Shown piece by piece: positions 12,079 to 41,127 of a DNA stretch of 64,000 bases. The position numbers and the translations under genes were made by a program. Below the pieces are notes generated by a model. It was not told the origin of the DNA and ran no database searches. It worked only from the letters and a program-made list of their open reading frames with translations. The stretch is from Nematopogon swammerdamellus. Its lineage: Eukaryota; Arthropoda; Insecta; Lepidoptera; Adelidae. The stretch lies in contig OX336350.1 in assembly GCA_946902875.1 (NCBI GenBank), positions 18,776,048-18,840,047 on the forward strand, given 5' to 3'. Positions within the stretch are counted from its first letter, which is position 1. Each line of letters begins with the position of its first letter.

Positions 12079-12513
12079 ACCTCCCTCTCCCTCTCCCTCT
12101 CTCTCTCCCTCTCCCTCTCCCTCTCCCTCTCCCTCTCCCTCTCCCTCTCCCTCTCCCTCTCCCTCTCCCTCTCCCTCTCCCTCTCCCTCTCCCTCTCCCT
12201 CTCCCTCTCCCTCTCCCTCTCCCTCTCCCTCTCCCTCTCCCTCTCCCTCTCCCTCTCCCTCTCCCTCTCCCTCTCCCTCTCCCTCTCCCTCTCCCTCTCC
12301 CTCTCCCTCTCCCTCTCCCTCTCCCTCTCCCTCTCCCTCTCCCTCTCCCTCTCCCTCTCCCTCTCCCTCTCCCTCTCCCTCTCCCTCTCCCTCTCCCTCT
12401 CCCTCTCCCTCTCCCTCTCCCTCTCCCTCTCCCTCTCCCTCTCCCTCTCCCTCTCCCTCTCCCTCTCCCTCTCCCTCTCCCTCTCCCTCTCCCTCTCCCT
12501 CTCCCTCTCTCTC
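12079..12513. repeat. (CTCCCT)n hexanucleotide microsatellite, ~72 units
   Basis: About 435 bases of almost perfect CTCCCT repeats with small CT interruptions near each end. The minus strand is pure purine, (AGGGAG)n, giving GGG runs separated by AGA without a break, which fits the G-quadruplex and triplex-forming consensus. Three minus-strand frames stay open and would read GE, RE and GR dipeptides, but this follows from the repeat and is not evidence of a gene. Confidence 0.97.
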
Positions 12514-12644
12514 TTGCAAATGCCCACGCAATATTTTTAACTGCCATCAGGAGGTTATTCTGTATGTGAAGCTAAATAACTTTTGTAACAGAAATGTTTT
12601 TTTCGAGACAAAATATTTTTAATATCAGAAATAACTTTGTAGGA

Positions 12645-16809: not shown

Positions 16810-17945
16810 TAGCTTTTGCCCGCGGCTTCGCTCGCGTGAAATTCGTATTTCAAAGGAAGACCTAAGGGCGAGCTGGATTCAGGTACTTAAACGATAAACC
16901 GTCTCGAAGAAAGTGAGTAACTTTTTGAGGCCGAAGGCGGAGTTGCGTTCAGGAAGACGATAAACCTTCTCGAAGACAGTAAGTAACTATGGGCGAGGCC
17001 GAAGGCCGAGCTGCGTTCAGGATGAGGGTACCCTTTTCGAAGAAAGTAAGTAATAGAGGGCGAGGCCGAAGGCCGAGCTGCGTTCAGGAAAACGATAAAC
17101 CTTCTCGAAGACAGTAAGTCGAACACATCTCGGCCTTCGGTCTCGCCCATAGTTACTTACTGTCTTCGAGAAGGTTTATCCTCTTCCTGAACGCAGCTCG
17201 GCCTTCGGCCTCGCCCTTTGTTACTTGGTTTCTTCGAGAAGGTTTAGGATCTTCCTGAACGCAGCTAGGCCTTCGGCCTCGCCTTTTGTTACTTACTTTC
17301 TTTCAGGAAGACCATAAACATTCTCGGAGAAAGTAAGTCACAGAGGGCGAGGCCGAAGGCCGAGCTGCGTTCAGGAAGACGATAAACCTTTTCGAAGACA
17401 GTAAGTAACTATGGGCGAGGCCGAAGGCCGAGCTGCGTTCAGGAAGGGAATAAACCATCTTTAAGAAAGTAAGTAACAAAGGGCGAGGCCGAAGGCCGAG
17501 CTTCGTTCAGGAAGAGGATAACCTTTTCGAAGAATGTAAGTAACAGTGAGCGAGTCCGAAGACCGAGCTGCGTTCAGGAAGACCATAAATCTTCTTGAAG
17601 AAAGTAACTTCTTTGTTACTTACTTTCTCCGAAAATGTTTATCTTCTTCCTGAACACATCTCGGCCTTCGGTCTCGCCCATAGTTACTTACTGTCTTCGA
17701 GAAGGTTTATCCTCTTCCTGAACGCAGCTCGGCCTTCGGCCTCGCCCTTTGTTACTTGGTTTCTTCGAGAAGGTTTAGGATCTTCCTGAACGCAGCTAGG
17801 CCTTCGGCCTCGCCTTTTGTTACTTACTTTCTTCGAGAAGGTTTATAGTCTTCCCGAACGCAGCTCGGCCTTCGGCCTCGCCATTAGTTACTTACTTTCT
17901 TTGAGTACGTTTATCGTCTTAGTGAACGCAACTCATTCACAAACT
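16810..17945. repeat. mixed-orientation array of ~70-bp 'ggccgaaggcc' units
   Basis: About 15 units containing 'gggcgaggccgaaggccgag', 'ctgcgttcaggaag' and 'cttctcgaagaaagtaagta'. Orientation flips at ~17115, ~17305 and ~17607, and at the last flip 'agaaagtaact' meets its complement to form a hairpin. A segment of about 175 bases is present identically at 17125 and 17655. The left end joins 'cccgcggcttcgctcgcg'. Partial arrays are at 21645-21745, 52780-52985 and 54025-54080. Confidence 0.9.
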
Positions 17946-21844: not shown

Positions 21845-23160
21845 ACATGTTATGTGGGCAGGTGGTCTCTTGAACTCAGTGTCCGAGGTTTGAATCCAGC
21901 CGATATGAACCAATGGGTTTTTTTTCTAACGGAAAAAATTACGTGTAAAATTTACACACACCAGCTGCTTCACCGTTCGGAACCGATGTAAAACTGTAGA
22001 TCCCTTCCCCTGCTCTTTAAGGCTTGGTAGGCTTTAATAGTAGAGCAGTTGTGAAGGGTTGGTACCACCGTACTGAACGTAAGATGGGCGCATAGCGGTC
22101 TTCGGAACCGGTGTAAAACTGTAGATCCCTTCTCTTGCCATTTGGTTGGCTTAAAATGTAGAGCAGTTGTGTGGGGTTGGTACCACCGTACTGAACGTAA
22201 GATGGGCGCATAGCGGTCTTCGGAACCGGTGTAAAACTGTAGATCCCTTCCCCTGCCCTTTAAGGCTTGGTAGGCTTAAATAGTAGAGCAGTTGTGAAGG
22301 GTTGGTACCACCGTACTGAACGTAAGATGGGCGCATAGCGGTCTTCGGAACCGGTGTAAAACTGTAGATCCCTTCTCTTGCCATTTGGTTGGCTTAAAAT
22401 GTAGAGCAGTTGTGTGGGGTTGGTACCACCGTACTGAACGTAAGATGGGCGCATAGCGGTCTTCGGAACCGGTGTAAAACTGTAGATCCCTTCCCCTGCC
22501 CTTTAAGGCTTGGTAGGCTTAAATAGTAGAGCAGTTGTGAAGGGTTGGTACCACCGTACTGAACGTAAGATGGGCGCATAGCGGTCTTCGGAACCGGTGT
22601 AAAACTGTAGATCCCTTCTCTTGCCATTTGGTTGGCTTAAAATGTAGAGCAGTTGTGTGGGGTTGGTACCACCGTACTGAACGTAAGATGGGCGCATAGC
22701 GGTCTTCGGAAGCGGTGTAAAACTGTAGGTCTCTTCCCTTCCCCTTATGGCTTGGTAGGCTCAAATTATAGAGCAGTTGTGTGGGGTTGGTACCACCGTA
22801 CTGAACGTAAGATGGGCGCATAGCGGTCTTCGGAAGCGGTGTAAAACTGTAGGTCTCTTCCCTTCCCCTTATGGCTTGGTAGGCTTAAATTGTAGAGCAG
22901 TTGTGTGAGGTTGGTACCACCGTACTGAACGTAAGATGGGCGCATAGCGGTCTTCGGAAGCGGTGTAAAACTGTAGGTCTCTTCCCTTCCCCTTATGCCT
23001 TGGTAGGCTTAAGTTGTAGAGCAGTTGTGTAGGGTTGGTAACACCGTACTGAACTTAAGATGGACGCACAGCGGTCTCGGCTTTATTCTCCTCTAGTCCA
23101 GTATATAATAGAGCAATCTGAAGGGAAGTCTCCGATATGGCACCATCTCAAACCCAAACC
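21845..23160 (+). mobile_element. SINE-2 with tandemly amplified body (higher-order array)
   Basis: The degenerate tRNA-like head of SINE-2 occurs once (21850-21960, B-box-like 'ggtttgaatcc') and the T2 tail once (23070-23150). Between them the core plus adjoining sequence is repeated about nine times. The recurring junction 'catagcggtcttcggaa' starts at 22092, then after 118, 125, 118, 125, 118, 124, 124 and 124 bases. The 118- and 125-base variants alternate to give a 243-bp higher-order unit repeated about three times, followed by three 124-base monomers. Minus-strand frames stay open across it only because of the repeat. Confidence 0.9.
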
Positions 23161-26714: not shown

Positions 26715-27275
26715 AAAGCTAGTCACAAGCGGCTGATCAACTTAATTCATGTTAAATTCATATTTGTATGAAATTAATTAATTAATTACAACACAATGTA
26801 AACAATAAAATTTATTGTTATGGTTAATGTACAAATGTCGTCATTTTTATTATCATAACGTCCATTTTAATTATTGCGTTTTGTGATGAATCACAACCTA
26901 CCTCAATGAAAATAGCTAGCAATAGGACGTATGAAGGCTGGCTGGTAAAATGTTATAAGGCGTAGGAGTTAGTTTAGCGCCTGGGTAGTGAGTATAGCAA
27001 AGAGACCGCGTTGCGTATAAATCGTAGCGGGTGGCATGTAGTCAGGCGCAGATAATACAACTTGCATACATTTTGAACAGGAATAGCTAGCAACACCGTA
27101 TAAGCGACAGATGATGATAGATAAGTATTATACGTCGGCATGCAGTAAGATATAGGACGAATTGACTGTATTACATCTACTTTTGTGAATTCGTAGCATT
27201 TTTCAGAGATTAGTTACTGAAGGTTTTAGGGAAATATGGAACGCATTTTTAAGGAAAATTGCTTCAGGCATTGTG

Positions 27276-27371
27276 ATTGGTCGACCAATGGGAGACGCGG
27301 AAATGATGTTAGGGATGATTTCCGATTGGTCGTGGGAGTAAGGGTGGGAGTAAGAAAGCGAGGCTATTTAA
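27276..27371 (+). promoter_or_regulatory. LTR promoter: CCAAT boxes and TATA-like box
   Basis: The perfect palindrome 'attggtcgaccaat' (27276-27289) holds two opposed CCAAT boxes. A third (ATTGG) is at 27325. 'tatttaa' follows at 27365-27371, about 40 bases downstream. Transcription would start near 27395. The right LTR has the same set 11,409 bases further on. This is motif evidence only. Confidence 0.55.
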
Positions 27372-27490
27372 GGGCGTGTAACACGGGAGGAGCACTTTTT
27401 CTGCAGCTGCGAGCCTCGGAGGAACAACTTGCCTGAGCCCCGGTCACCGCTAAGTCGCATCGAGCGCCATTGCTTTTCGGCATCAACGTT

Positions 27491-27499
27491 TCGGTGAGT
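27491..27499 (+). promoter_or_regulatory. candidate splice donor in the LTR leader
   Basis: 'tcggtgagt' gives the G|GTGAGT donor consensus, about 100 bases downstream of the predicted start site. If used, LTR-initiated transcripts would be spliced into the interior. Confidence 0.4.
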
Positions 27500-27700
27500 C
27501 TCGGACGCCGCGCGCTATTTTGGAGTTTTCTAGTTGCAATTCGACCAGTTCTATTAAATTGCATTGTCTTGAAGTCTTCTTTTGGTGGCTGGGCTAGTTT
27601 TGGAAACAATACTGGCTTTTCAGAAATTATTTGCTAGTATTAGGGATGTGAAATATTTTTATATGGACCATCATTGGAGCACTGTGTGGGATGCTAGCTA

Positions 27701-28010
27701 TGCTGAAATATGCATACATGCATACTATTACAGGGCTCTTTTCCCTTTTGGAGCACTGGGTGAGGGAGCGGGTACGCTGAAATATGCATGCACGCCCACT
27801 CACGCAGGGTTCTTTCACGGAATGTTGTGAGGGAAGCGGGTTTTGCTGAAATATGCATACACGCACGATCTCACAGGGTTCTTCCCTGGAACGTTGTATG
27901 TGGGTTGCGGGTTTTGCTGAAATATGCATACGCGCGCACTCATGCGAGGTTCTTTTCCTTTCGATGGAATGTTGGGTGGCAACGCTAGCTATGCTGAATA
28001 AGCATACACG
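27701..28010 (+). repeat. five ~70-bp repeats inside the LTR
   Basis: Each unit contains 'gctgaaatatgcatacac' or a close variant, at 27702, 27776, 27846, 27916 and 27987 (spacing about 70-75 bases). The last unit has 'gctgaataagcatacac'. The same array is in the right LTR. ATGCAT-type sites may bind POU/homeodomain factors; this is a guess. Confidence 0.85.
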
Positions 28011-28168
28011 CTTGTTCGCACAAGATTCAGTTCATTCTCTATGATATCACGAGAAAATGCCTCGTGGTAAGAAGACGTAACATAAGGTCGAAGAGCAACT
28101 GGAATTCTGGCTAAACTATCAAATTATAACGTGGGTAGTTAGGTTCTTCAAACACTAAATTCATATTG

Positions 28169-28541
28169 GTAGGTTAGCCATGTAGCTGTGTGAATTAATT
28201 CTCCTTAGTTCTGCAAGGGAGAGAGGGTTCGCTTCGTGGGAATGAGTAGTATCATAGTGTGTAGTATTTAGTGAGGTAGGTACTAGGAAGGCCAGGTAGG
28301 TACCCCTCAGTAATTCTCCTTAATCCTGCTAGGCCGTGGGGACCTTTTCATTTTATTAGTATTAAAGTCATATGGTAGGTTAGCCATGTAGCTGTGTGAA
28401 TTAATTCTCCTTAATTCTGCAAGGGAGAGAGGGTTCACTTCGTGAGAACGAGTAGTACCATAGTGTGTAGTATTTAGTGAGGTTAGGTACTAGGAAGACC
28501 AGGTAAATACCCCACAGTGGTTCTCCTTAGTCCTGCTAGGG
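28169..28541 (+). repeat. ~165-bp tandem duplication inside the LTR
   Basis: Both copies start 'ggtaggttagccatgtagct' (28170 and 28374), run through 'ttctgcaagggagagagggt' and end 'cctgctagg'. They differ at several bases, so the duplication predates the insertion, and both LTRs carry the same differences. Confidence 0.85.
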
Positions 28542-29441
28542 GGGAGAGGTCCAAATTGTTATGATCTGTTAGAGCGATACCTATTCTATCTGGCGAAGGG
28601 GTGGCGGTACTCTAAGGACCGGTGCAAGCTGAGCTGACCGTCTGAGGAGGAAACCTGTGGTAGCCTTCTTTCGATAGGCAGAGCCCGTCGGACGAAGTAC
28701 TACGAGGTTAGGATAGGGACCACACACACACTTACACACACACGCACGCCTTTAGGATTTGGGGTCCGTAGGGGCCCTAAATCATCCACATTACACCACG
28801 AGTTTCATTTTAAATCTCTTCCTAAGAGAGAAACAGTTTCTTCACAGGATAGGAATCAAAGGGGGCCATTAGGTATACAAAATAGAGCTGCTGGTAGTAA
28901 AGCAGCCCTATATGGATGATGGCCACTGTGAGGAGCGTGGAGAGCCCGGGTGAGGAAACCCGGACTTGTGGAGCTCCTTACTTCCCCCTCCGGGGGGAAA
29001 TTGTTTGAATAATTTGAAAATTACTGGTTGACACAATTTCTGGGAGGAGAGAATACAGACAATTACAATGTGATGGAAGAGACACAGTGATATAGGAGAG
29101 GCGGACTTAGGCAGAAAATTACATATGTATTTAGAATATTATTCGAAGAACAAAGGTTAGGATAGAAAGCTAGGGATTGAGTTAGTACTCTGGGTTATAC
29201 GGTTACACAACGCTTCCTCGAAGAGAGGAAGATACAGGGTCCATCTACACTTAATTCAGTGTATACTTATGTATGCATTGCTTGAGTTTACCTAGAGATC
29301 ACTTGAATGCTAAACGCAGGCCATGTTTTATTTTAGAGGTTACTCGCGGAAGCGTGGAATTTCGGAATAATTATTCGACAACACCTATCGGGTGAAGTAT
29401 AAATACAAAATATACTTTGGTGGGAGGCTAGTTCGTCGCAG

Positions 29442-29458
29442 TGGTGCCTAAGTCCAGG
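29442..29458 (+). promoter_or_regulatory. candidate primer-binding site
   Basis: 'tggtgcctaagtccagg' begins with TGG, as expected for complement to a tRNA CCA end, one base after the LTR. The first seven bases would fit several tRNAs; the rest I could not assign. Confidence 0.4.
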
Positions 29459-29746
29459 ATAGTTCCTACCTAAATCTAGGATACCTAGGGTTCAGAAAAA
29501 AAAGAGAGGGAAAAATGGAAGAAAAATGTAGTTCGTTGCGGTAGTTCAGGACAATAATAGGGGTCTTATATACTCAAAAGCGATAGGAAAAAATCCAACT
29601 CATAGGGAGTAGCGATATAAGTAAATAGCGTTATAGGAAGTGATACCGGGAAAGTGATTAAGTGTGGAATTCGGTGAGGAAATGCGTGAAAAGTGGTTCG
29701 TGGAACGCGATGCTGACTGGCAGTTTCGCGAGAGAAGAGATTTGGA

Positions 29747-29767
29747 CTCCCGCCTACGAGGCGGGAG
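29747..29767 (+). other. leader stem-loop
   Basis: 'ctcccgcct', loop 'acg', and the perfect complement 'aggcgggag'. Its place ~300 bases after the primer site suggests a packaging or dimerisation role, which is inference. Confidence 0.5.
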
Positions 29768-31811
29768 GTTTCGCCGCTTGAAGCTGAGAGTGAGTACATA
29801 TTTCATTTTCCGGCGCGAGTGCAGTCTGTGTACAATTAATTAATTTTCAGAAATATTGTCTACAATTTGCCGACAATGTTGCTAGAAAACCGATTTTAAC
29901 GTGAACGAATTGTCACCAGAAAGTCGACTAGAGATTCATCTTTGAGTTCGTAAAAGAAAATTGCTTACATTTCCTTCTAGGAAGTTCATTATCATTGTTC
30001 TGCGGACAACTAGAAATAGTTAAGTGAAAACCAATTTTGACCAATGGGATGTGAGCGCCGGTGCGGGATGGCGTTCGCTATTGGCTAGAATGAGCAGCGC
30101 CGTGATAGAAAAAAAATCTGTTTGCACGAAGAATGTAGTCGGGTTGAGAGGTGATAGACTAAACAAAGTGGAAGTTAGGGGAATGGTATGTATGAATGGT
30201 GTGAGGCATATTTCTAAGCGGAATGTTAGCAACTTCGTAGAAGTAAGGTGGGGCCAAAGGAAAATATTTTATCCAGAGATTGTGAAACTAAAATCAATAA
30301 TTTATTCCGGGTACACCGCGATATAGCAGGAAGAGGAAAAATTTTTTTTAATGGGTTATCGGAAAAATTGTGCTATAAGCCTAAAAGCCAATTAATTAAG
30401 AATCCTAGAATGAGCTAAAATCAACAATATTGTAGTAAGAATATTCTATGAAAACCTTAGTTGTAAAATTGGATAGCCATTCTACTTAAGTTAAGGCACG
30501 CCAACTGAGCGCGGAGGGCTTCATACCTAAAACACGGAAGTTATGTTCGAAAATAATTTCGTATTGTGTAATAATTAGGTACGCTCGCGCGCGAAATAGT
30601 TTATCGGGGCCAGTTTGAGGCCAATAAAGGGAATTTTCTAGTTGTTTGGTGGAAATGAAGTTGGATGGGGTGTAAGCTTCCTTTGTAAAATAAAAAAGCC
30701 GTAAAATATGTGTGTTTGAAAAGAGTGGTTATGTTTGACCGGGTTCCAACAGACTGATTTAATTTTGGTTGAGATTGTCGCCGAAGAATAAAAAGATTCG
30801 AATCTTTATTTCATTTTAATGGAATGCGAGAAGAATGGAAAAAAAAAAATGTCATTTTGAAAATGTATAATGGATGTTTAGTTAATGATTTGTGTAGTAG
30901 TGATAAGGTGTGCATTTTAGGCTCCAAAGTAGGTATTTCGCGAATTAGTAGCGAGCGACGGTATGGCACCTACTAGTGGGGAGATGGTAGATTAAGATTA
31001 GGGGGATCCCAGTTAATTGATGTGACTAATTAGGTGCCATGTACAAGTGAAGGTTAGTTTGTAAAGTTGTGTCTAGGTCTGACTTTGCGTGTGTGGGCGA
31101 TATGGTACTTACTAGATTAGGTTAGTGGCAAACAAAGGTCATGGTGTACAAGTTGACTAGTGGAAGTAATTAGGTGCCATGTACAATGTTGGTTAGGCCG
31201 TGAGGTTGAGTCTTGGTCAGATTTTGTGTGTGTGTGGCGAATAGAGGCTCTTAGTGAACATGCCGAATACGTGATTCATATCGAGTGAGTGGTTTTGGGC
31301 TTGATTGTATTGTTTGTTTATTGAGAAGGAATGGACTATTAAGTTTGTTTATTTTTGAACTGATTGGCTGGTATGAGGAATGGGGGTTCCAGTTGCTTGC
31401 GGTATGGGGAATGTATGAGTCAAAGGGTTAGAAGGGGGAGTAAGTGCCATGTCGGAGAACGTACCGGACGAGACATTGAATTTTGGTCGGTCATGCATGA
31501 GTGTTTTGGTCGGTCCGTCCGGAATGTGGGACGTATGGATTATAAGGAGTATGGCAATTAGGTGCCATGACAGAGGTCCAGGTTTCGATTTTAGGTTGCG
31601 GTCGTATGTATAGGTGTCAAAAGGTGAGAAGGCCAGTTGGTGAGTGTTGGTGCGATTGGAGGTCGAATTAAGCCTGTCAATTTGTGATCCATATCGAGTG
31701 AGTGGTTTTAGATTTGCCCATAAATGTGTTTGTTTAATTAATTAGACTAATTTATAAATAATATTTGATACATGTGTACATGTTGCACGCGTTGAAAGAA
31801 AACAGTCGGGG

Positions 31812-31882
31812 TGGGCGGAGTGATTGATGTTGTGCGGTGGGAGCTCTGGTGAATTGCAGCACAACGCCGATCACCACGTTTT
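31812..31882 (-). repeat. SINE-3 tail-like segment inside the LARD
   Basis: 'gattgatgttgtgc' and 'gcagcacaacgccgatcacc' with 'acgttttgc' match, inverted, the T3 hairpin region of SINE-3. It is diverged, so it was captured before the recent spread of the element. Confidence 0.55.
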
Positions 31883-31929
31883 GCAAATTATTTTATAACT
31901 AAGTTTGGTTATTGTGCGGGCTACAAGGT

Positions 31930-32740
31930 GGTGTCAGGGGTTTCTAACTTTTCTAAAGGGAAGTGTCAGGGGTTACAAACCTTTTTCCAAAATTATATTG
32001 TCAGGGATTTCGAACTTTTTCAAATTCATGATAAGTCAGGGGTGCTCAAACTTTTCTAAATTTATATTGTCAGGGATTTCGAACTTTTTCAAATTCAGGA
32101 TAAGTCAGGGGTGCTCAAACTTTTCTAAATTTATATTGTCAGGGATTTCGAACTTTTTCAAATTCAGGATAAGTCAGGGGTGCTCAAACTTTACCAAATT
32201 TAGATTGTCAGGGATTTCGAACTTTTCAAATTCATGATAAGCCAGGGGTGCTCAAACTTTTTCAAATTTATATTATCAGGGATTTCGAACTTTTTCAAAT
32301 TCATGATAAGTCAGGGGTGCTCAAACTTTTCTAAATTTATATTGTCAGGGATTTCGAACTTTTTCAAATTCAGGATAAGTCAGGGGTGCTCAAACTTTAC
32401 CAAATTTAGATTGTCAGGGGTTTCGAACTTTTCAAATTCATGATAAGCCAGGGGTGCTCAAACTTTTTCAAATTTATATTATCAGGGATTTCGAACTTTT
32501 CAAATTCATGATAAGTCAGGGGTGCTCAAACTTTTCCAAATTTAGATTGTCAGGGATTTCGAACTTTTCAAATTCACGATAAGCCAGGGGTGCTCAAACT
32601 TTTTCAAATTTATATTGTCAGGGATTTCGAACTTTTTCAAATTCATGATGAGTCAGGGGTTCTCAAAAGTTTCCAAATTAAGTTTGTGTCAAGGATTTCG
32701 AACCATTTCAAAATCGTGACATGTCAGGGGTTTACAACTT
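31930..32740 (+). repeat. 69-bp tandem array with ~206-bp higher-order period
   Basis: The unit contains 'tcaggggtgctcaaac' and 'tcagggatttcgaac'. Starts at 32036, 32105, 32174, 32242, 32311, 32380, 32448 and onward give a 68-69-base period. Three sub-variants ('ctaaatttat', 'accaaatttag', 'ttcaaatttat') recur in order, giving the longer period. Since 69 is a multiple of three, frames stay open with a 23-residue repeat; I do not regard this as coding. Confidence 0.9.
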
Positions 32741-32759
32741 TATTTACAAAAATATTTTT

Positions 32760-33370
32760 GATTTAAGGGAGGCCTCGACATCCCAAGAATATTTCGGAGT
32801 CAGGGGTTCTCAACTTTCGGAATATTTGCTAATTTTAAATATTTTAGGGTTCTCAACTTTAGAAAAATATTTTATTTTTCCTTAGGATATTTAAGGGAGG
32901 TCTTAACTTCCAAACATATTTGCACTTAGCGGTTCTTAATTTTCAAAAATATTTTCAAATTTTGAAATTCTAGGGTCTCAACTTTAGAAAAATATTTTTT
33001 TTTCCCTTAGGATATTTAAGGGAGGTCTCAGCTTCCAAAAATATTTTGAACTTAGCGGTTCTTAATTTCAAAAATATTTTCAAATTTTGAAATTCTAGGG
33101 TCTCAACTTTAGAAAAATATTTTATTTTTCCTTAGGATATTTAAGGGAGGTCTTAACTTCCAAACATATTTGCACTTAGCGGTTCTTAATTTTCAAAAAT
33201 ATTTTCAAATTTTGAAATTCTAGGGTCTCAACTTTAGAAAAATATTTGATTTTTCCTTAGGATATTTAAGGGAGGTCTTAACTTTCAAACATATTTGAAC
33301 TTAGCGGTTCTTAATTTTCAAAATATTTTCAAATTTTGGATTAAGCGGTCCTCAACTTTCAAGAATATTG
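32760..33370 (+). repeat. ~125-bp tandem array, five units
   Basis: The unit contains 'ggatatttaagggaggtctt', 'cttagcggttcttaat' and 'tctagggtctcaactttag'; 'ttaaggg' starts at ~32763, 32891, 33016, 33141 and 33266. Flanking units degrade gradually to ~33530. Confidence 0.9.
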
Positions 33371-34249
33371 CCAAATTTAGAATGGTTTAGGGTTCTCGAC
33401 TTTGGAAATATTTTTTTCGGAAGGTTTAGGGAGGAGTCCGACTTTCAATATGTTTTGAGTTCAGGAGTTCCCAACTTTCAAAGTGTTTCGGATTTTGAAT
33501 ATTTCAGGGGTCTATACTTTAGAAATATTTTTATTCTCTTGGAATGTAAGGGAAGTGTGTTATGTATATTGCACTTAACGCGAATCAAGAACACGGTAAT
33601 GGGCTATTAGAGATATTGTAAGTAATTATAAATTTATACCGTGCAGCGCTGTCACTCGATGCTGGCAGTAGTGAACGAATTCGCTATTCGTTTGATTCCC
33701 ACGATTAAAAAGGGAAGAAAAAAGGAGAAACTTTATTCTAATAAACACCAATACACACGGTCAAACAAAATATCAAATATTGTGTGTGTATACAGGTTCA
33801 ACTCGAGCTTTGATTATTGGATAGACTATCATGAATTGGATGTAATTTATTGTGCTAATTATTAGTTATTTTTAGTAATTTACTTTCTTATCTTTGAACT
33901 TCTGCTCTTGCATAGAGGACATTTTCCTCACAAGCGCAGGCATGTCTGCTCGCGTGCACGAATGATACTTGCGTACTTAGGGATATGTTTTTTTGTGTAG
34001 ACCAGCTTTTTGCAATCGTGAATACATTGGTATTTGGGTGCGTGGGCGTATATTTAATTGTTTACTTACATATCTACTTGTGTGTCTATAGATACCTAAT
34101 TGCGTGCGTACATGCGTGTATGCGTGCAGGCGTTCGTGCGCATATGTAATTGTGTGCGTACTTGCTGATTGGTATGACTATGCTTGCGTATCCGTGCGTA
34201 CATGCATATTACGTGGTTACCTGCGTCGGTAGGGATTGTTGTGGATGCG

Positions 34250-34317
34250 CGGGGACAGGCTTCGAACCCCGGACTGCGGGTGGTTCGTCACTCTTCGGTT
34301 TATGATCTGGCTAAGTA
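34250..34317 (-). tRNA. weak tRNA-like motif inside the LARD
   Basis: The minus strand has 'tagccagatcat' (A-box-like, ~34302-34313) and 'ggggttcgaagcc' (B-box-like, 34258-34270), about 40 bases apart. The stems do not pair well, so at best it is a tRNA relic. Confidence 0.25.
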
Positions 34318-37300
34318 TTTGTGAGTGAGCTGAGTACATCTTAATATTATCCTACTGAAAAAAAAGAGTAAGAAGAGAAAAGAAAAAAAAAATAACCAAA
34401 AGAATAACAAAAGGTAAGTGTATCTCGCAATATTATATTTTAAAATGATAGAACAAGGACTTATAGTTAAATAAGATGCTGATGAAATATTTTGCTACTA
34501 CTCTCAACCATCCAGGGATTGACAGGAAGAAATTCCTATAATGGGATAAGTCCGCCTTTACGCCTCAGGTAAATTGTGTACCGTGCATGTTTCTGTGAGA
34601 TGTGTCCGAACGGTTGGGAATTATTATTTATCTATTTATGTTAAAGAATCTATTTAAAGGAGTTATTTTTATGGGTGAATACTAAACCACATGTTTACAT
34701 AGACTAATCACGTTTTTATAGGGTGTATACTTACATGTACTTAACTATATAATTCTTTTTATAGAATATCAAATCTATAATTAATTATTAGAACGAATGA
34801 GAGGTAGAGGAGTTGAATATTGTTTTAATAATGATTTTTTTCTTTTCAGGAAAATACTTACTCGGTATTTGAGTGCGGTCTATGTTAAAAAAAATTATTT
34901 AGGTTCACATAAATCTACGCGTACCAAAATCAACGAATATTCTTCGATGCACATACGGATTGTAATATTGCAGGGCAATATTGCATTATTATTAATTTAT
35001 AATCAAGATTGAAAAAAATATATATATACGAATTAAACTTGGCGTTTTATTAGGTACACTGGACCATTTAAACGGTGCCCTGTATCTATTCTTATTAGAA
35101 GGTCCTATTGTCTGATATTATGATCGAACAGGTGGTAAAATGTTTCAAGTTATATATAAAATTACTTATAAAATAAGAATCTGGTTTTATTGTTCGGGTT
35201 GTGTGAAGCAGAATACTGTTACACACATCGCCTTGACATTGCGGGGTATTTTATGAGTATCTTAAACTGTTTAAAGTATTGTACGTCGGGTTGATAAATG
35301 CTGTATGAGTTGACGAGTGTTGTGTAAAAAAGTTTTATCATCGTGCTAGCTGAAGGCGGGTAATGTTGAGCGGATCTTTATGCATTTGTTTTGGGTGGTG
35401 AGTTATTTAGGAGAGGTTGGGGTTGGGGAAGATAAATTAATTTTATGGGAGGATGAGCAATGGAGGATACGACGAATCTGGCGGGCGAACGGTGAGCGTT
35501 CAACAATCGTACTAACCTTTATGTTATGCATGTATACTATTATTTAGAACGCGGAATTTGGAAGGCGAAGAATTGGGAGAAGTTTGGTTTGACGTACAGT
35601 AGAGATTTCCTATTTATCTGGTAACTGAAAGGACGACTCCTTTACGGCGTACGCGCACCATATTGTGCCGTAACAAGAGCATACTTGTTGTCTTTAGGGT
35701 TACGGAATGCATATGTTTAGGCGGGCGAGAAAATGGAATAGGTTAAAATTAGATAGAAAATAAAATAAATGTTATAGAATAAAATAGGTATGGTAATGAT
35801 CAAAGATAAAAACTACCTCCTTATCGCAGTCTTAAGGGAATGCGAATCTGTACGTGTAGAACATAGGTTTAGGGAGGGCCGTGATCGTCTAGTTCGTAGG
35901 ACCCTACGTTGTTAGGTTAGTATTGCTACAGTGCGATACTGTTTAACTTAGAGCAGTAGTAGAATAATGATTTATTCACTATTCACTACTGAAATTTCAG
36001 AATTGAAACTGATTCAGTTTGGTAAAATCCGGTAAGGTGGTACGATTTGACTCCGTTTGGTAAAATTCGGTAAGTTTGGTATGAGATGTCGCAATTTAGT
36101 AAAATCGGGTACATGAAGATAGATGTGGAGAAGGTAACGTTTGGTCTACTGAACCGATTGGTCATAAGTAATGGCGTAGGAATTTGGTGAGAGTAGATGC
36201 AACATAACAAGGATAAATAAGCAGGAACAAAGGGAGCAGGAACCTGAGTAAGGAATGCCGGGTGGTGACGAAGGAGTGAGCGATAATAGAGCAGTAAGGT
36301 TAGGTTAGAGGTTAGCCCCATGGGATTGCAAAGCCACGTAGTTGTCATAGGATAGGATAGAGTCCGGCGGGCGAGGTAGATCACTAGGTAGGTTATTTAT
36401 ATTTCTTATGTGCAATATAGGCAGGGAACACATTAAGGAACGATCGACATTTGTTGGACGAGCTATAGAGTAAACATAGTCTGGCGGGCGTATTGCTTGG
36501 GTTGTTACGTAGATAGAATATAGTAAAATAGGATAAGAGAGGAGTTTGGAATAAAGGTTATAGAAAAATATTACTATTGATAGGGTTCCGTTCAAAAGGT
36601 ACTATAGGAAGGGGTAAGGTGAAGTATTACTAACGATAGGGTTCCGTCCACCTCGTACAAGATGAGTAGGTAGGAGGGTCCCTTGAGCGACAGACTAGGG
36701 ATTGGGGTCATGGTTTATATAGGGATAAATAGAGCGTGTACAAAGGGTATATTTCGGATAAAATATCAGTTAAAACAAGTCATTTAATACGGTGCGTTCA
36801 TAGATTAATCACGGACTCTACATAGTCAGGCGGGCGAATAGAGTATGAAAATGAAGTAAAATTGGTAGTTGGGGCGTCGAACGTAGCCGCGGATCGTGTG
36901 TAGGTTGGCGAGTGAAATTATGCTGTCCGGAAGTAAGGACGAGTTAGGAGGTACAATTGTAGATATAGATTCTTAGTATTATTCTGGGGTTAATTAAAGG
37001 ACGGAAACAGTAGAGACTATAGCATATATATAGCTAGGAAATAGAAAGCTCTAACGAATAATACCCGCTACGGACAAATAGGAATAAAATCCTGTTCGGC
37101 GTGGGGGAGTTGAGTTATTGATAATTATGAACAAAAGGTTTTAAGACTTAGAATAGACTTGTTGGTAGATGCTGGGTTTGGATGGTTGTGTAAATACAGA
37201 AATACGCGAGTAAACCATTGGGTATTATAGTGTCTGTACTCGGTAGTGAAACTCCCTTTTAATGAGAGCAGAGCTCTGACCTGAAGGGACTTTTACAATG

Positions 37301-38290
37301 AATCAGGACACATTGGTTTCGATTTTTATTGCATTTCCCATACATTGCTCCGAAAAGAATGTGAACGTAAACTCAGTGTGTTGAACACACGAATGGGACT
37401 TGAAAAATGTGAGGTGAACAAAGCCATTGTGCAGAACTTTACATTCCATCGAGACCTTAATTTGTTCTCACTCGGGAGGGAAAATGTTATCATATACCGA
37501 GGGCGTTCTACACTAAGCAAAAAGGAGCGTTTAAAGTTAGTGGTGACATTTTCCGGTCTATGAAAAGTGATAGAACATAGCAATTTGAACCATTGACCGG
37601 AGCAATGTTGGATGAGATTAAAGTAGAGTCGTGTACAATCAGACTGGGCCCATCCATTCGTCAACGGGTTAGTTAGTTAGCAAAGGTTATGATTCGGAAG
37701 AAGCAAAGTCAATTTAATATTCTCTCAGTAATAATTTCCCAGTTTTCCTGTCTATAACTAGAAAGGTTAAGGTGTTGGAATGTGCGGCGTGTCTAAACCG
37801 GAGGTGGCAAGGTATGTTGTGCGCTCTCCCTGGAGAGAAGTACTGATCCTGCCCTACCAGCGAGGGGTAAGACTACAGGTTTCCTGAGCTGGTGGGAAAT
37901 CTTTCTATGGCATGAAACAGGGTATTAAGTGTTTAGTAATTTCATTTTGAGCTTCTGATGAGTCTAACCTGACTATACTAGGACGAATGCCCATATGTTG
38001 TGTTGTGTGGTCGGGACTGCTTAGCACCCAAAATAAAATGCCACAATCATTCTGGTAAGGGAACAAACACCCTATTAGAAGAAGTTGTTGGTACTACGGA
38101 CCTTCTGGAGAGGGAACGAACACCCTAACAGAGGCACATCTACGAAAAGCAGTACTGCAGCCATAGCATTAATATATGTTGGCGACAGACAGACATAGAC
38201 TATAGTGTGGTGTAGAGACGCTAGTCGCGATCATGGAAGCAGAAAATAAATTCTTTCCCATGCCGCGAAAATCGCCTCTAGGCGGGCGAC

Positions 38291-40847
38291 TGTGATGAAT
38301 CACAACCTACCTCAATGAAAATAGCTAGCAATAGGACGTATGAAGGCTGGCTGGTAAAATGTTATAAGGCGTAGGAGTTAGTTTAGCGCCTGGGTAGTGA
38401 GTATAGCAAAGAGACCGCGTTGCGTATAAATCGTAGCGGGTGGCATGTAGTCAGGCGCAGATAATACAACTTGCATACATTTTGAACAGGAATAGCTAGC
38501 AACACCGTATAAGCGACAGATGATGATAGATAAGTATTATACGTCGGCATGCAGTAAGATATAGGACGAATTGACTGTATTACATCTACTTTTGTGAATT
38601 CGTAGCATTTTTCAGAGATTAGTTACTGAAGGTTTTAGGGAAATATGGAACGCATTTTTAAGGAAAATTGCTTCAGGCATTGTGATTGGTCGACCAATGG
38701 GAGACGCGGAAATGATGTTAGGGATGATTTCCGATTGGTCGTGGGAGTAAGGGTGGGAGTAAGAAAGCGAGGCTATTTAAGGGCGTGTAACACGGGAGGA
38801 GCACTTTTTCTGCAGCTGCGAGCCTCGGAGGAACAACTTGCCTGAGCCCCGGTCACCGCTAAGTCGCATCGAGCGCCATTGCTTTTCGGCATCAACGTTT
38901 CGGTGAGTCTCGGACGCCGCGCGCTATTTTGGAGTTTTCTAGTTGCAATTCGACCAGTTCTATTAAATTGCATTGTCTTGAAGTCTTCTTTTGGTGGCTG
39001 GGCTAGTTTTGGAAACAATACTGGCTTTTCAGAAATTATTTGCTAGTATTAGGGATGTGAAATATTTTTATATGGACCATCATTGGAGCACTGTGTGGGA
39101 TGCTAGCTATGCTGAAATATGCATACATGCATACTATTACAGGGCTCTTTTCCCTTTTGGAGCACTGGGTGAGGGAGCGGGTACGCTGAAATATGCATGC
39201 ACGCCCACTCACGCAGGGTTCTTTCACGGAATGTTGTGAGGGAAGCGGGTTTTGCTGAAATATGCATACACGCACGATCTCACAGGGTTCTTCCCTGGAA
39301 CGTTGTATGTGGGTTGCGGGTTTTGCTGAAATATGCATACGCGCGCACTCATGCGAGGTTCTTTTCCTTTCGATGGAATGTTGGGTGGCAACGCTAGCTA
39401 TGCTGAATAAGCATACACGCTTGTTCGCACAAGATTCAGTTCATTCTCTATGATATCACGAGAAAATGCCTCGTGGTAAGAAGACGTAACATAAGGTCGA
39501 AGAGCAACTGGAATTCTGGCTAAACTATCAAATTATAACGTGGGTAGTTAGGTTCTTCAAACACTAAATTCATATTGGTAGGTTAGCCATGTAGCTGTGT
39601 GAATTAATTCTCCTTAGTTCTGCAAGGGAGAGAGGGTTCGCTTCGTGGGAATGAGTAGTATCATAGTGTGTAGTATTTAGTGAGGTAGGTACTAGGAAGG
39701 CCAGGTAGGTACCCCTCAGTAATTCTCCTTAATCCTGCTAGGCCGTGGGGACCTTTTCATTTTATTAGTATTAAAGTCATATGGTAGGTTAGCCATGTAG
39801 CTGTGTGAATTAATTCTCCTTAATTCTGCAAGGGAGAGAGGGTTCACTTCGTGAGAACGAGTAGTACCATAGTGTGTAGTATTTAGTGAGGTTAGGTACT
39901 AGGAAGACCAGGTAAATACCCCACAGTGGTTCTCCTTAGTCCTGCTAGGGGGGAGAGGTCCAAATTGTTATGATCTGTTAGAGCGATACCTATTCTATCT
40001 GGCGAAGGGGTGGCGGTACTCTAAGGACCGGTGCAAGCTGAGCTGACCGTCTGAGGAGGAAACCTGTGGTAGCCTTCTTTCGATAGGCAGAGCCCGTCGG
40101 ACGAAGTACTACGAGGTTAGGATAGGGACCACACACACACTTACACACACACGCACGCCTTTAGGATTTGGGGTCCGTAGGGGCCCTAAATCATCCACAT
40201 TACACCACGAGTTTCATTTTAAATCTCTTCCTAAGAGAAACAGTTTCTTCACAGGATAGGAATCAAAGGGGGCCATTAGGTATACAAAATAGAGCTGCTG
40301 GTAGTAAAGCAGCCCTATATGGATGATGGCCACTGTGAGGAGCGTGGAGAGCCCGGGTGAGGAAACCCGGACTTGTGGAGCTCCTTACTTCCCCCTCCGG
40401 GGGGAAATTGTTTGAATAATTTGAAAATTACTGGTTGACACAATTTCTGGGAGGAGAGAATACAGACAATTACAATGTGATGGAAGAGACACAGTGATAT
40501 AGGAGAGGCGGACTTAGGCAGAAAATTACATATGTATTTAGAATATTATTCGAAGAACAAAGGTTAGGATAGAAAGCTAGGGATTGAGTTAGTACTCTGG
40601 GTTATACGGTTACACAACGCTTCCTCGAAGAGAGGAAGATACAGGGTCCATCTACACTTAATTCAGTGTATACTTATGTATGCATTGCTTGAGTTTACCT
40701 AGAGATCACTTGAATGCTAAACGCAGGCCATGTTTTATTTTAGAGGTTACTCGCGGAAGCGTGGAATTTCGGAATAATTATTCGACAACACCTATCGGGT
40801 GAAGTATAAATACAAAATATACTTTGGTGGGAGGCTAGTTCGTCGCA
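38291..40847 (+). repeat. right LTR, 2557 bp
   Basis: Same sequence as the left LTR by visual comparison. The one difference I found is a 2-base deletion in 'cctaagaga(ga)aacag' (around 40227, versus 28823). It carries the same promoter motifs, so it could drive transcription rightward into 40848 and beyond. Confidence 0.9.
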
Positions 40848-41127
40848 GTTTCCAGTTTAGATAACTCTCATTTACGTGTTTCAAAGGTCAAAGTATAATT
40901 CTCTAAAAACAACCGCACGCTCTCTTAATTTCAGATGAACTCTGCTCCCCACCGCAGCCACAGCGTAAAAATATTTAGTGAAGTTTATATTTTCTTATCT
41001 CCATATAAATGAATATGGAAAATAAATGTTGTATTTGTGAATTTTTTTTTAGAAATAGTGATGACTCGTACTGTGTAGGCAGTGGCAAACGCTTTTGTAA
41101 ATGTAGACTAAGTGGACGTAAAAAAAA
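40848..41127. other. right flank of the LARD, no gene
   Basis: Begins with the target duplication 'gttt'. A 60-codon frame at 41009 shows no domain. Confidence 0.5.

Follow-up and report, generated by a model that had tools for sequence, protein, structure and literature searches.

A gene-less LARD-type LTR retrotransposon and its likely coding Ty3/gypsy partner in the moth Nematopogon swammerdamellus

The window analysed here is a 64,000-nucleotide stretch of the genome of the moth Nematopogon swammerdamellus (contig OX336350.1, positions 18,776,048 to 18,840,047) and contains a 14-kb element bounded by two long terminal repeats (LTRs). The element very probably belongs to the large non-autonomous LTR retrotransposons of the LARD (large retrotransposon derivative) type and is most likely mobilised by proteins that a coding Ty3/gypsy element from its own family supplies. 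The only coding partner read end to end is a copy of about 20 kb on contig 24 (C24; L023–L025). The ends of the window element are those of an LTR retrotransposon: near-identical direct repeats of the form TG...CA and a target duplication of 4 bp, where 4–6 bp are expected. The LTRs start with TGTGATGA and finish with TCGTCGCA, and GTTT lies immediately outside both element ends. An earlier note, made from the letters of this stretch, had described these near-identical repeats, their single 2-bp indel, and the flanking GTTT; base-by-base alignment of the pair agrees, with 0 mismatches and one 2-bp gap. BLAST similarity passes the right LTR ends by 2 bases only. The parts of the element are as follows.

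26878–26881, no strand assigned: left copy of the target duplication (GTTT)
26882–29440, + strand: 5' LTR of 2559 bp (TG...CA); it contains a 63-nt unit four times, at a spacing of about 70 bp, and a 111-nt unit twice, 206 bp apart
29441–33614, + strand: non-coding leader, common to the coding partner; its first bases are GTGGTGCCTAAG[T/A]CCAGGATAG
31983–32731, + strand: 69-bp tandem array within the leader; the stretch also aligns in coding copy C24
32821–33338, + strand: 125-bp tandem array within the leader, also present in the partner
33615–36016, + strand: private core of the gene-less form; the coding block occupies the same place in coding copy C24
36017–38290, + strand: 3' non-coding region, common to the partner, with unmatched parts near 36110–36333 and 36493–36625
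38291–40847, + strand: 3' LTR, 2557 bp
40848–40851, no strand assigned: right copy of the target duplication (GTTT)

The interior (29441–38290) spans 8.85 kb, and its longest stop-to-stop frame has 136 amino acids (aa). This is within chance, as the longest frame in 200 sequences generated by a first-order Markov model with matched composition has a median of 114 and a 95th percentile of 159 aa. A tblastn search of the window with eight pieces of the partner's native proteins (E ≤ 1) gave zero matches and hence no trace of gag-pol, and four of the five longest frames of the interior have zero Pfam matches at E ≤ 1, the fifth, located in a tandem array, being left unscanned. Anywhere in the window, neither an Rfam match at gathering score nor a tRNA was found. 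The gene-less interior described in the earlier note thus stands, and no decayed gag-pol, which that note had named as a refutation, was found in it. LARDs are defined by an interior of more than 4 kb without coding capacity, a size that the present interior exceeds. Approximately 6 of the 8.85 kb are non-coding leader and 3' region that C24 also carries, and approximately 2.4 kb are private. It is improbable that the interior is a captured host locus or a long non-coding RNA with a function of its own, for which the LTRs serve as a vehicle only: in its favour, the copies preserve their 2.4-kb core, for which no source is known, but the larger, non-coding remainder recurs in C24, the longest frames are within chance, and Rfam gives no match. 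The element is strongly asymmetric between strands: its four parts have a GC skew of 0.20–0.28 (26882–40847), compared with 0.02 in the 10-kb flank on each side.

The family is present in many copies. The searched genome comprises 699 Mb in 39 contigs, and probe matches were counted among the best-scored 40 candidates only. With the first 519 bp of the LTR as probe, the best 40 of 197 candidates match at 99–100%; because these share the LTR start, the repeat pair in the window is not a product of chance. The first 600 bp of the interior match the best 40 of 68 candidate loci at 94–100%, with 15 short partial rows in addition. For a 601-bp probe from the core, the best 40 of 242 candidates comprise the window and 39 further loci at 85–88%. 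Ten further copies were retrieved, nine of them with both ends, so that together with the window ten copies were read at both ends. All ten carry a perfect 4-bp target duplication (gttt, taac, catt, gacc, ccac, gttt, ggag, aaag, catt, and tatg); the last of these, in copy C23, sits in a TATG repeat and says little. The nine gene-less LTR pairs feature 9 mismatches over 21,575 aligned sites (0–4 per pair), and because the pairs are almost without differences, the gene-less insertions are recent. Other copies with the same LTR and interior, for which the earlier note had proposed a search, are thus present, and the recent insertion that it inferred is supported.

The interior is conserved among the copies, as in LARDs. 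The 2.4-kb core occurs in nine of the ten retrieved copies and is missing from the coding one, which argues for a single origin of the gene-less form; in this event, the coding block would have been replaced by the core. Within the core of the window, a patch at approximately 34645–35000 differs from all eight aligned copies by about 5–17% mismatches per 150 columns and several gaps, and the rest of the core is mostly 95–100% identical to them. Between other copies, 0–2 sites per 150 columns differ in this patch (two comparisons). The patch may derive by recombination from an unseen subfamily.

The coding partner shares its ends with the window element. The LTRs of C24 are approximately 98–99% identical to those of the window, with closely similar ends, and in place of window positions 33615–36016 it carries about 8 kb of other sequence. 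This block encodes a Ty3/gypsy pol with reverse transcriptase (RT; RVT_1), RNase H, an H2C2 zinc finger, and the integrase core (rve). In a second coding copy, C12b (contig 12, L029), a 314-aa frame overlaps a pol frame with a G-patch and an aspartic protease. The order is that of Ty3/gypsy pol: RT, RNase H, H2C2, and rve in C24, with the protease ahead of RT in C12b. A 601-bp RT probe yields 21 rows in the genome and 11 loci at ≥90%, of which 8 are unbroken at 99–100%, one is at 95%, and two are each split into two pieces. The other rows are one 139-bp fragment, five loci at 75% that represent a sister family, and two loci at 66–71%. An autonomous-type element with the same LTR ends and the same sequence after the 5' LTR, which the earlier note had proposed to look for, is thus present. 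The LTR pair of C24, the sole coding copy whose LTRs were compared, has 1 difference over 2560 sites; C24 was therefore inserted recently. Over its first 420 residues, the C24 pol frame shares 54% identity with proteins of Parnassius and Plutella and 59% with an Arctia protein (30% covered), and the best matches that bear a name are lepidopteran; unnamed proteins match at up to 64%, and the G-patch (PF01585) occurs in many of the 120 listed. Downstream of pol, two coding copies have a charged frame of 125–133 aa, coiled-coil-like by eye, with no Pfam match above the cut-off, and beyond it the coding copies carry an accessory gene with a BTB domain. GC skew is 0.24–0.25 in three coding parts of the partner.

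Gene-less and coding forms have in common the LTRs, the 4.2-kb leader with its two tandem arrays, and most of the 2.3-kb 3' region. Alignment blocks recur in the 125-bp array, which suggests length variation from copy to copy. The association of these parts was assessed by position within 20 kb, using 12 RT rows (one per locus at ≥90%). Among the best 40 of 68 leader matches, 21 have the core downstream (one at 17.7 kb), 7 have RT, none has both, and 12 have neither, two of the latter (C7b and C23) being gene-less by alignment. For the best 40 of 242 core matches, the same comparison finds none of the 12 RT rows at a distance of 20 kb or less. A tree of approximately 1.37 kb of the leader from 10 gene-less and 8 coding copies has interleaved labels: no fewer than 4 label changes are required by its starred branches, and a grouping of all gene-less copies in one clade is rejected (p-AU 0.00068). 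By branch length, the leader of coding copy C12b is about 1 change from that of gene-less copy C25 and about 2 from that of C18. The simplest reading of this interleaving is template switching between gene-less and coding RNAs, from which we infer that both are co-packaged in one particle. The leader, as a shared part, would carry the packaging signal, and the gene-less RNA would be packaged, reverse-transcribed, and integrated by the proteins of the partner.

A number of observations weigh against this mobilisation by the partner, or against the exchange of leaders within its particles. Gene conversion between integrated copies could also produce mixed leaders. The tree of the 3' region (10 gene-less and 10 coding copies) gives a less clear picture than that of the leader: the grouping of all gene-less copies in one clade is not rejected at significance (p 0.0635), only 1 change is required by starred branches, and labels are clustered, with 13 of 500 shuffles as low. 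In the other direction, the best tree of this region needs 4 changes, and 0 of 200 bootstrap trees separate the gene-less from the coding copies by a single branch. Both coding copies examined in detail are damaged, C24 by short frames ahead of pol and C12b by approximately 2.5 kb that interrupt pol. The 314-aa frame is called gag-like by position only; it has no Pfam match above the cut-off and no relative at E ≤ 0.001. The start of the leader folds no better than shuffled sequence (z +1.3; 185 of 200 shuffles as good). Ahead of the 3' LTR, there is no classical polypurine tract, only the partly purine sequence ...GGCGGGCGAC, which is conserved in 10 of 10 copies. The sequence right after the 5' LTR, GTGGTGCCTAAG[T/A]CCAGG, is kept in 10 of 10 copies read there (C25 gave no reading), and a cognate primer tRNA was not found: a search with a tRNA-shaped pattern produced 10 matches (2 mismatches in each), versus 4 in the control.

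Some elements dispense with a tRNA primer, as Tf1 primes from the 5' end of its own RNA. Such self-priming is a far-fetched reading for the present family and was rejected as a candidate. An 11-base stretch of the LTR at 29103 is complementary to the sequence right after the 5' LTR, where 0.02–0.1 such matches are expected by chance (arithmetic), but six of ten copies (C18, C12, C7a, C4, C23, and the coding C24) carry A instead of T in the putative primer site, and their LTRs lack a compensating change. Least probable of all is that decay or internal deletion of coding elements gave rise to the gene-less copies, many times over: repeated deletion would give intermixed gene-less and coding leaders, as seen, and a separate copy, L058 (C22:12520500–12525500), in which the start of the gag-like frame joins the post-pol region directly and a diverged 281-aa BTB frame follows, resembles a deletion derivative that kept the gag-like start and the BTB gene, but independent deletions would not give the one common private core that the window and the nine retrieved gene-less copies carry in the same place, and the window holds no gag-pol remnant.

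The pairing of a gene-less with a coding form has a counterpart in wheat, where the LTRs of the autonomous and non-autonomous subfamilies of RLC_Angela cluster together (PMC9744471), as the LTRs are common to both forms here. RLC_Angela belongs to the Copia superfamily and to a plant, whereas the present family is Ty3/gypsy and from Lepidoptera. For wheat, gene conversion or template switching is named as a route of exchange, and the assignment of partners is stated to be hard without experiments for the wheat families (PMC9744471).

The accessory gene of the partner is a frame of 320 aa that contains a BTB domain (PF00651, E 4.5e-23) and no other Pfam domain above the cut-off. The frame is open in 10 of 10 copies read, out of 11 coding loci. 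The retrieved piece of one copy, C30, ends early, and the genome search there gives 352 aa without a stop; the eleventh locus, C16, which lies outside the ten, has a BTB match in two overlapping pieces at 86–89%. Pairwise comparison of the ten copies gives a pN/pS of 0.35 for the whole frame, with 0.25 for the BTB part and 0.39 for the tail; variation is silent at 17 codons and alters the residue at 21. As judged by these ratios, the accessory protein is under purifying selection. Older BTB relatives elsewhere in the genome comprise two at 65% with stops and one on C22, whose BTB part matches at 81% and whose tail matches at 50%. Of the five sister loci, L041 and L042 were read. They carry a relative of the 125–133-aa frame at 40–44%, another frame of 207–210 aa where the BTB gene would be, and a common 3' region at 71–75%, with similarity starting at window position 37143. 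Because of this other frame, the BTB gene was either gained in the present family or lost in the sister.

Over 110 aa, the BTB domain of the element shares 62% identity with Danaus tramtrack, and its identity to the four other BTB proteins compared is 42–48%; tramtrack is hence its closest relative by pairwise identity among these five, as assessed without a tree. The host genome has a tramtrack-like gene at C12:6881 (L059), 73% identical to Danaus tramtrack over 368 aligned columns that span an intron. This intron (GT...AG) lies in the BTB region, and the element frame reads straight through the same point. Because the frame lacks the intron, the domain was probably captured from a spliced host tramtrack mRNA by retro-copying; against this stands another host BTB gene (C4), which is intronless at that point. 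BTB domains of the tramtrack group are arthropod-specific and multimerise, with a wide potential for heteromeric contacts, as described in the part of PMC11426971 drawn on here. The same source gives an N-terminal FxLRWN motif for the group, where the element reads FSSLSWGG and the host tramtrack-like protein FSLCWNN. In contrast to host genes of the group, the BTB domain of the element is encoded inside a retroelement, without the intron and with an altered N-terminal motif. Elsewhere in the genome, seven BTB-domain frames at 31–34% to that of the element lie within 60 kb (C10:20579628–20638382) and are perhaps a host gene cluster.

From its similarity to tramtrack, it is plausible that the accessory protein binds host BTB factors, and it may thereby alter the expression of the element. 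A more specific, tentative proposal, which we regard as somewhat unlikely, is that the protein acts as a decoy or scaffold that joins host tramtrack-group multimers without contributing zinc fingers, relieving repression of the LTR. If so, gene-less copies would gain twice, by borrowed Gag-Pol and by transcription from de-repressed LTRs. Words of the tramtrack-site type are not enriched in LTR and leader. The LTR also contains TGCATAC, a Su(Hw)-like insulator motif, six times (0.33 expected). Four of the six lie in the array of approximately 70-bp repeats (27685–27961 and 39094–39370), and three longer Su(Hw)-like forms have 0 occurrences in the LTR; because of this concentration in repeats and the absence of the longer forms, the insulator reading was dropped.

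Outside the element, the window contains three further repeats. Positions 12081–12514 are 434 bp of nearly perfect CTCCCT hexamer repeats, 16891–17943 is an array of 68-bp repeats with switches in orientation, and 21976–23077 holds nine copies of a unit of about 120 bp or, in an alternative call, 4.5 copies of a 243-bp unit.

Non-autonomous LTR elements of this size have been studied mostly in plants. The plant LARDs, such as barley Sukkula and rice Dasheng, feature long LTRs and a long conserved gene-less interior and are thought to be mobilised by a coding partner. The present element resembles them in its LTRs and interior and differs in having an animal host and in sharing its genome with a coding partner from its own family that carries an extra host-like gene. 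The earlier note had called a LARD of this size unusual for a moth: a large gene-less element in a moth genome stands, but the class itself is not new in insects, since repeats of the honey bee carry the label (PMC4028053) and LARDs make up 8.84% of the assembly of a moth, the yellow stem borer (PMC10923946). In the parts of these two reports considered, LARDs are bulk annotation classes and no coding partner is named. The Ty3/gypsy proteins of Parnassius, Plutella, and Arctia have no BTB in their Pfam lists, where pol proteins would not show a separate accessory gene, and no report of a BTB gene inside an LTR retrotransposon was found in the titles and abstract openings of part of the open-access literature. 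The traced pairing of a gene-less and a coding form and the captured host domain appear new to us.

With a coding relative in the same genome, young copies, and interleaved leaders, the parasitism of a retroelement by a gene-less form becomes traceable in an insect. The partner is, in turn, an LTR element that retains a host transcription-factor domain under purifying selection, probably gained through a spliced mRNA.
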